Source: Macrocystis pyrifera
Taxonomy: Eukaryota; Sar; Phaeophyceae; Laminariales; Laminariaceae
DNA: 64,000 nt
Direction of reading: 5' to 3'
Assembly: GCA_031763025.1 (NCBI GenBank)
Contig: JASSKH010000001.1
Span: 23,127,840-23,191,839 of the forward strand
Part shown: positions 46,001-49,000 of the stretch, in pieces
How positions within the stretch are numbered: the first letter of the stretch is position 1
How the letters are laid out: each line of letters begins with the position of its first letter
Notes under the pieces: model-generated
Seen by the model: only the letters and a program-made list of their open reading frames with translations
The model's database searches: none
Told to the model about the DNA's origin: nothing
Position numbers and translations under genes: made by a program

Positions 46001-49000
46001 AGCGTACTGAAGTCGAAAAAATTGCAGGAGAAAAAAATAAGTAGAAGACGGGAAGGAAAAACAAAACAGGAAAGAAATAGCGAGCGAAATGACCAAATTA
46101 TGAAAATATAATCGGTGATGCAATCGATCACGATGCAATCGATAACCACATGACCGCGTGGTCGCCAAAACATACCAGGTATACCCTCCCTCGCCTCCTC
46201 CCCCCCCCTCCCCCCATCCGACTGCGACCATGCATGACATGAGTACCCACCGCCCTCTCCTTCCCCCCATGCCCACCCTCACCCCAGGTTACAAAGGGGC
46301 TTTACCAGAAATACGGGGAGAAAAGGGTTATCGACACCCCCATCACGGAGATGGGTTTTACGGGGTTGGCGACGGGAGCGGCTTACAAGGACCTGCGCCC
46401 AGTGGTGGAGTTCATGACCTTCAACTTTTCTCTCCAGGCGATCGACCAGATCATCAACTCGGCGGGCGAAGCAGCTTTATATGTCGGCGGGGGATGTCCC
46501 CGTGCCGGTGGTGTTTCGAGGGCCTAACGGCGCGGCTTCGGGTGTAGGTGGGTTGGAGGGAGGAGGCGGCGGCGGTGGTGGTGGTGGGGGTGTTCCGGCT
46601 GTGGTTTGTTGCTGTGGTGGTGGTTGGTGATATTGGTTGTGATGGTGGTGGTGGTAGTGGTGGTTGGTGATGTGTCCTTTGTGTTGATGTTGCCACTTTT
46701 TTTTATCGCATTGACTCATGGCCGTGATGTATTGTCCGCGGTCACGAGACAGAGCCAAACCTTGTGAAAGTATGTGATACTCTGCATATATCGGTGGGGT
46801 GATATAGGGGGGGGCTTGAGCTTTGGGGAGGGTATTGCTGCGTGAGGAGCGACTAGTGAGTTGCGCGACGGGTATGTGTGCTTGTCGTTCTGGTGCTGCT
46901 CTTGTAGACTCTTTGTATCACACATAGCACCCAGCAAGCCCTTTGAACGCGCGATTCTTCCTCATCGCATGACGCCTTTACTGTACAGTAGTACGTAGCA
47001 CCCCCCCCCCCCCCCCCCCCCCCCCCCCCCCCCCCCCCCCCCCCCCCCCCCCCCCACCTCTATCCCGGCTCTTTCCTCTCAGTGTGCAGTTTTTTTTTCA
47101 CCCCCTCCCTCCTCCCCCGTTCCACTTTGCTCCCCTCCCACCGCCTCCCCCTCACCCCCCCACCGCCCCCTCCTTATCTATTGCAGGTGCGCAGCACTCT
47201 CAGTGCTTCGCGGCGTGGTACTCCTCCATCCCGGCACTTAAGGTCGTAGCACCCTGGTCCAGCGAGGACGCTAAGGGCCTCATCAAGGCGGCCATACGCG
47301 ACCCCAACCCCGTTGTATACCTCGAGAACGAGCTGCTTTACGGCGTGGCCTTCCCCATGTCGGACGAGGCTCAGGCGGAGGACTTTGTCATCCCCATCGG
47401 CAAGGCCAAGGTCGAGAAAGAAGGTAGGCAGGTTTTTTGTTTGGGGGGTTTGCTTGTTCATGAGGCGTGGCAAGCGGGATGGGGGAACTTATCATCCCCA
47501 CTGGCAAGGCCAGGGTCGAGAAGGAAGGTAGGTAGCTTTTTTTCTTATCGTGGGTTTTGCTTTTTTTTGGCGAGGCGTAGCAGAGGAGGGTGGGGTGAGG
47601 GGAGGTTATTGTCATCCCCGTCGTCAACGCCAAGGTCGAGAAGGTTAGGCTGGTTTTGTCAGCGGATTGCCCGTTTTTTTTTGGCGAGGCGCAGTAGCAG
47701 GAGGGAGGAATTTGTCATCCCTATCAGCAAAGCCAAGATCGAGAAGGGAGGTAAAGCGGGTGTTTCGTCGGGGTTTCGCTTGTTTTTGGTGAGGCGTAGT
47801 AGCGGAGGGGTGTTAGGGGGGATGGAGTGAGGGATTAGACTGTGCTTGGCTTGACTTTGATTTCGCGCCCCTCTCGCGTTTGGTTGTTTTCTTTGGGGCG
47901 TTTTCGGGGTTTTCCCGGGGGTTTGCTTGTTTTTAGCGGGACATCGTAGCGAAGGGTGGGTGGGGGGGGGGGAATTGTCATCACCAGCGGCAAGGCCGAG
48001 AAGGGAGATAGTGCGAGGTTGGCTTGGGCCCCGCGCGTTTTGTCGTGTTTCTGTTGATTATTTCGCGGGGTTTTGCTTTTTTGGCGAGGCGTAGTAGGGC
48101 AGGGGGGGCGTGAGGCGTGAGGCATGCGCCTTGTGCGTTTCGTCGGGTTTCTTTCGTATTTGGTGAGGTGTAGTAGGGGAGGAGGGCGGGGTTATCGTTT
48201 TTTTTTTTTTTGGGATTATCTCATTATATTTTATTTTGACGAGGTGTGGAGGGAATGGGTTAGGAGGGGAAGAAGGGTGGGCGTAGGGTGCTGTCGTGGT
48301 AGTCTTACAGTAGGTTGTCTTTGTATAGAGAAGTGTGTTGTTTTTGCTCCGCTGTCATATAATACGATGCTGCTGCCCAGGTGAAGACCTTTTTTGCGTG
48401 ATAGTTTCTCTGGTGTCTGTCCTGTGTGGTCGTTTGCGAAAGTTGCAAGTTGTGGGCGTCAATGCAGGCAGGTTATCGATCCACTCGCGACACAAGCATC
48501 GCTAGAGAGGTGGCTACGCCAATACTACTGATATTACGGGGGGCCATAGTAAATAGGACCAAATATTGTTAGTAAAAATAGGGAAATATATAGTTTTTGT
48601 GTGTACCGTAGGTCCTATTTACTATGGTCCCCCGCAATAGTGACAGCCTGCAGCAGTAGCGTAGCGACGACAGAACATTTGCAACGTGCATCTTTTTTTT
48701 TTTTCATTGTACATGTGTACTCTACGCTTTTTTCGTTTTATTTTCACCCTTTCAGCCGTTACATAGAGTTATCATCGTTGGTTTGTTGCTGCCTTTCAAT
48801 GCGCTCGTGTACACTTTTCTTTTTTTCGTTTTCCCGTTTGATCCTCTTCCGTCTCCCCTTGTTTGCGTGCTTCTTTCTATATTTTTAATGCTCTCTCGCA
48901 CGTCTGTCTCTCTATTTGCTTTCCCCTTTTTACTCTTTCTGTTCCTTGCCTATGTTTGCTTGCTTTTCTTTCTCTCAATCTCCTCGCGAAGGCACGGACG

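Follow-up and report, generated by a model that had tools for sequence, protein, structure and literature searches.

In the giant kelp Macrocystis pyrifera, one intron of the gene for mitochondrial PDH E1-beta (PDHB) begins with a decayed array of copies of the preceding exon's 3' end, several of which still carry a version of its splice donor. We consider it likely, from the sequence, that this intron grew through short tandem duplications that spanned the exon boundary, that the growth was probably neutral, and that splicing proceeds mostly from the first donor. The array lies in a window of 64,000 nucleotides, which is the whole stretch of DNA analysed. The genome searched comprised 537,376,219 bases in 223 contigs, and the giant kelp assembly is described as 537 MB in 35 scaffolds and 188 contigs, with an N50 of 13,669,674 (PMC10498591).

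The exon preceding the array (47187-47423) and the next exon encode PDHB, as indicated by their match to the human chain 3exe_B (E = 5e-44), and the hand-stitched kelp gene matches the human chain with E = 2.8e-130. The preceding exon is the third located in the conserved part of PDHB, and its donor joins position 48992 in phase 1, across an intron of 1,568 bp. Searching the genome at the protein level with the two exons returned the exons themselves and one relative that is 35% identical, so PDHB appears to be single-copy. The coding sequence is open and highly conserved apart from two one-base frame breaks. These lie in upstream exons at about 45482 and 46465, both at short G runs, and are probably residual long-read assembly errors.

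The initial annotation had proposed that the 3' end of this exon, together with the start of the intron, recurs four times downstream, and had suggested aligning the later units with the exon as a check against background. Both the recurrence and the check held up. The last ~47 bp of the exon aligned to units U1, U2, U3 and U5 (Table 1) with scores of 31, 30, 33 and 20, exceeding the best score of 13 from 500 dinucleotide shuffles of the whole intron, and the similarity is thus beyond chance. Two further controls, the reverse-complement intron and the remaining intron sequence (48331-48991), gave 11 and 7. Chance or low complexity as the source of the copies was ruled out by the shuffles and the reverse-complement control. 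In units U4 (7), U6 (5), U7 (6) and a tentative U8 (5-7), the exon tail scored at background level. The copied part of the exon had been put at about 40 bp, and the source unit reaches deeper, from about 47365. Four of the five exon-intron boundaries originally listed (47423, 47527, 47750 and 48006) stand as given, and the one placed at 47644 lies at 47643. Unit U3 is still recognisable as coding, as had been noted, its exon-like part giving a 15-letter reading.

Table 1. Features of the PDHB intron and its flanking exons, in window coordinates. Unit starts were placed by self-comparison and are approximate; a slash marks the exon-intron boundary.
Feature	Position	Strand	Basis
PDHB exon, source of copies, donor GAAG/GTAGGC	47187-47423	+	human PDHB homology
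U0, source unit: exon tail and first ~39 bp of intron	47365-47462	+	unit alignment
U1, copy, exon-like 47481-47527, donor AAG/GTAGGT at 47528	47463-47569	+	alignment, pairing energy
U2, copy, exon-like 47601-47643, donor AAG/GTTAGG	47570-47683	+	alignment, pairing energy
U3, copy, exon-like 47704-47750 (15-letter peptide reading), donor GAG/GTAAAG	47684-47788	+	alignment, frame, pairing energy
U4, intronic part only retained	47789-47935	+	exon-tail score 7; intronic match (D2, D4)
U5, copy, exon-like about 47970-48006, donor lost (GGA/GATAGT)	47936-48083	+	exon-tail score 20
U6, degenerate, intronic part only	48084-48162	+	exon-tail score 5; start and end matched (D2)
U7, degenerate, recognised by first ~20 bp only (to 48182)	48163-48230	+	D2; exon-tail score 6
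101-bp repeat with inverted ends, outside the tandem array, same intron	48536-48636	+	genome matches
Next PDHB exon, acceptor AG 48990-48991	48992-49083	+	homology and phase

In a full unit the exon tail is followed by the donor and a G/T-rich intron stretch; such a unit contains AAGGTAGG and about 40-50 bp of the existing intron 3' of the donor. Further copies of the intronic half lie at the ends of U4, U5 and U6 (repeat family D2). Head-to-tail lags are 104, 120 and 103 bp among units U0-U3, which bear the exon part, and 147-148 bp further on, indels making the spacing uneven. The recognisable array (47424-48182) accounts for 759 of the 1,568 intron bases, and the 3' half of the intron, with its own acceptor, lies beyond it. 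The array was absent from the output of Tandem Repeats Finder at score 40. A mobile element carrying an exon fragment would be expected to have similar copies elsewhere; a 97-bp query matched only itself in the genome, in a search of low sensitivity that also missed the 79% identical neighbouring unit. No copies were found at the other PDHB exon edges inspected (four donors and six acceptors).

The 101-bp repeat in the same intron belongs to a high-copy family, with at least 46 matches in the genome (40 of 1178 candidates were scored), and looks like a small non-autonomous DNA element. A stretch resembling it, as judged by eye, lies at the end of the kinesin stretch L072.

The pattern of identities is informative about the origin of the copies. 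Over a 70-bp block spanning the exon boundary, ungapped identity to the source is 79% for U1, 60% for U2 and 77% for U3. When aligned over 74-77 columns, U1, U2 and U3 share 70-72% identity with the source and 61-66% with one another. The source is therefore closer to the copies than these are to each other, which is the pattern expected if the source is conserved and each copy decays on its own, and which agrees with the earlier proposal that the intron grew through tandem duplication of a segment spanning an exon boundary. The conserved PDHB exon is the likely source. For unit U5, identity is higher with U2 (64%) than with the source (58%), and this unit may derive from another copy.

The copied donors were compared by their predicted pairing with U1 snRNA (named in full here to distinguish it from unit U1). 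Duplex energies, which refer to the canonical U1 snRNA 5' end and not to this genome's own, were -9.2 kcal/mol for the real donor, -11.9 for unit U1, -6.1 for U2 and -6.9 for U3. Among the 141 GTs between 47424 and 48980, the real donor included, unit U1 ranked first, the real donor fourth, U3 13th and U2 15th. Five competing or decoy donors had been counted at the outset; four GT sites remain, comprising the real donor and three decoys (U1, U2 and U3), and the fifth, at 48006, lacks the GT. Five real PDHB donors span -6.5 to -11.5 kcal/mol, a range that includes U3 and ends just above U2. The two weaker of these real donors (-6.5 and -7.0 kcal/mol) are close to U3 and U2, so these two copies are not clearly unusable, and strength alone gives no ground to exclude the copies. 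Each of U2, U3 and the real donor agrees with the consensus at 6 of its 9 letters.

Use of a later donor is predicted to add peptide or a stop, as the initial annotation had anticipated. With the U1 or U2 donor, the reading frame would shift and run into a stop within the next exon, 7 or 17 codons from its start, and the transcripts would thus carry premature stops. With the U3 donor, 327 nt would be added, corresponding to 109 codons, in frame and free of stops. An open frame of this length arose in 31 of 2000 dinucleotide shuffles and was noticed post hoc; it is mildly unusual, carries no evidence of use, and leaves room for an in-frame isoform. The copy donors that survive, U1 foremost, may see some low-level use.

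A functional reading would take the copies as working alternative 5' splice sites, with premature-stop isoforms from U1 and U2 lowering PDHB output, or with a 109-residue extension from U3. The top rank of unit U1 in pairing, the nearness of U2 and U3 to weaker real donors of the same gene, and the open, in-frame U3 extension are all in its favor. However, the GT of U5 has been lost, decay has brought the copies down to 60-79% identity and several units lack the exon part, which looks like drift, and the 109-residue insert would interrupt a region conserved with the human enzyme. We regard this reading as unlikely.

It is very improbable that some of the units are small cassette exons, representing an early stage of tandem exon duplication, each with its own upstream T-run and AG. 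A T-run followed by GGYGAGGCGYAG does open U2, U3 and U4, but U1 and U5 have no clean version of this pattern. In U3, about ten purine-rich bases separate the T-run from the first AG, and exons starting from the first three AGs past the T-run would be 56, 53 and 50 nt long, none a multiple of three.

Least credible of all is an assembly artefact or a pseudogene: the two frame breaks, in an assembly made from PacBio long reads, might point that way, but copies only 60-79% identical to their source are unlikely to be a misplaced single read segment, the reads are described as coming from one haploid female gametophyte, hence with no allelic mix (PMC10498591), and the gene appears single-copy with a coding sequence that is otherwise open and highly conserved.

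Growth of the intron by tandem duplication, the reading that we prefer, is in keeping with the sampled kelp sequence as a whole. In 24 pieces of 10 kb (240 kb; six from the window and 18 others, of which 16 were from C189 and one each from C190 and C200), 56 clusters of direct duplications with lags of 30-400 bp were counted, compared with 7 inverted clusters and none in shuffles (one shuffle per piece). Short tandem duplication is therefore widespread in the sampled sequence, though four of the 24 pieces contained no such direct cluster. The commonest lags are 60-120 bp, and those of the PDHB units U0-U3 (103-120 bp) are typical. Downstream in the window, a perfect 69-bp tandem duplication (49689-49827, two copies, 100% identical) starts within a C run and appears to be a recent product of the short-lag process. 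Very long C or G runs occur at 47001-47055 (55 bases), 49598-49701 (104 bases) and 52727-52782 (56 bases), and also elsewhere in the genome, for example in stretches L028 and L064.

The PDHB case is not unique, since similar copies are present at other sampled exon ends. A copy of an exon tail with its donor was found at 3 of 73 such ends (95% interval 0.9-11.5%), a count that is approximate, as the match end is not always the exon end, several matches share a gene and some stretches overlap. The survey was small and hand-picked, covering a single gene besides two families. It took in 60 of the 131 kinesin-domain matches, the 9 PF02779 matches (of 11) that lie outside PDHB, and the four other PDHB donors. 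In each case, 53 bp around the match end were compared with the 430 bp downstream. The kinesin matches were chosen by hand, 40 with 900 bp of downstream sequence and 20 with 440 bp; matches that ended close to the end of the model were set aside, as were some long open frames and the second copy wherever a scaffold stretch was duplicated. The three positive ends scored 34 (kinesin L043), 24 (transketolase L022) and 22 (kinesin L072); none of the other 70 exceeded 12, and scores in the reverse-complement null went no higher than 11.

The three positive ends differ in the state of their copies. Kinesin L043 has copies 174 and about 311 bp further on; the donor of the first, GTGAGT, outpairs the real donor, and the second has no GT. 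Kinesin L072 has a single copy at a lag of 151 bp, with an identical GTGAAA donor. In transketolase L022 (1687-1882), the unit is 97 bp long, the 18-bp exon tail and donor are identical in both copies, the copies differ mainly in GT-repeat length, the exon ends lie at 1704 and, in the copy, 1801, and the next exon, from 2415, begins DGPTHQ. Use of the copy donors is predicted to bring stops within the extension in L043 and L072 and a frameshift in L022.

Two further cases fall outside this count. The mirror arrangement was found at 1 of 15 exon starts tested: in the 2-oxoglutarate dehydrogenase E1 stretch L028, the acceptor and exon start are copied upstream (71% identity over 103 bp, lag 360 bp). 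In kinesin L064, the exon tail recurs 792 bp downstream with its GT kept (tail score 24, compared with a maximum of 12 in 60 shuffles), beyond the 430-bp test and too distant for the short-lag class.

As a control, exon ends were paired with downstream stretches of other matches. Twelve of 5,402 swapped pairs scored at least 17, nine of these at least 20, with a top score of 53. The downstream stretch was L052 or L076 in ten of the twelve, L040 in one and L074 in one. Our reading of the coordinates is that these pairs reflect real exon homology, as the stretches hold or overlap other listed kinesin exons.

Taken together, the sequences suggest the following course of events. A segment of ~100 bp, reaching from ~60 bp before the end of the PDHB exon, through its 5' splice site, to ~40-50 bp inside the intron, would have been tandemly duplicated, and the copies re-duplicated to give about seven extra units, which later decayed by point mutation and indels. 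The short-lag process common in the sampled kelp genome would thus occasionally fall across an exon edge. The protein can stay the same when a duplication spans a donor: with splicing from the first one, the later copies would become intron, and the intron would simply lengthen. We infer the neutrality of this growth, the lack of function of the copies and the dominance of the first donor. On the simplest account, PDHB would be an older, repeatedly amplified case and transketolase a fresh one.

Such duplication would be one way for introns to lengthen without a change in protein. It would also provide natural tests of splice-site choice, as near-copies of one donor lie 100-170 bp apart within one intron, still identical at one extreme (transketolase, kinesin L072) and dead at the other (PDHB U5, the second copy of kinesin L043). 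Were the proportion of 3 in 73 to apply across the genome, such copies would be present in a considerable number of kelp introns, complicating gene prediction. We give an even chance to the broader proposition that a few percent of giant kelp introns begin with ghosts of the preceding exon tail and donor, that this is a continuing and common route of lengthening, and that the spliceosome tells the real donor by position or exon context, not by local sequence. If true, in fresh cases such as transketolase it must separate the real donor from an identical local copy.

Among known systems, the array resembles intragenic short tandem duplication in its head-to-tail lag and above-chance similarity. 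Gao and Lynch (2009) reportedly described internal gene duplication in eukaryotes, in which intragenic duplications may include exon-intron structure; the kelp PDHB case is likewise an intragenic duplication. It differs from tandem or mutually exclusive exons, which are complete exons, whereas the array copies hold the exon's 3' tail alone, never a complete exon with both splice sites, and one has lost its donor. In the brown algal ROCO genes, whole 72-bp LRR exons are described as tandemly copied and alternatively spliced (PMC11378527); exon sequence is in tandem in both systems, but as whole exons there and as exon tails with donors here. The introns of Ectocarpus are long, with an autosomal median given as 524 bp (PMC12477816). 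In the literature searched, of which coverage was partial, we found no report of arrays of exon tails and donors in kelp introns.

In the model of Rogers (1989) and Hellsten (2011), as summarized in two other papers, a wholly exonic segment containing AGGT is tandemly duplicated to give a new intron, and in fission yeast one intron is described as extending over a 24-bp exonic segment present in four tandem copies (PMC4974935, PMC2891723). Common to this model and the kelp array is that duplication and splicing hide coding sequence as intron; the kelp unit, however, is not wholly exonic, since it includes existing intron and a donor. The closest published case that we found is the potato RdRp gene, in which a tandem duplication across an intron-exon boundary is described as having copied the acceptor once and produced a new intron, confirmed by RNA-seq (PMC4974935). 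As in PDHB, a duplication straddling an existing border set splice signals beside the original. In potato the acceptor was copied once and a new intron arose, whereas in kelp PDHB the donor was copied several times and an existing intron would have grown; the acceptor copy in L028 resembles the potato case in kind.
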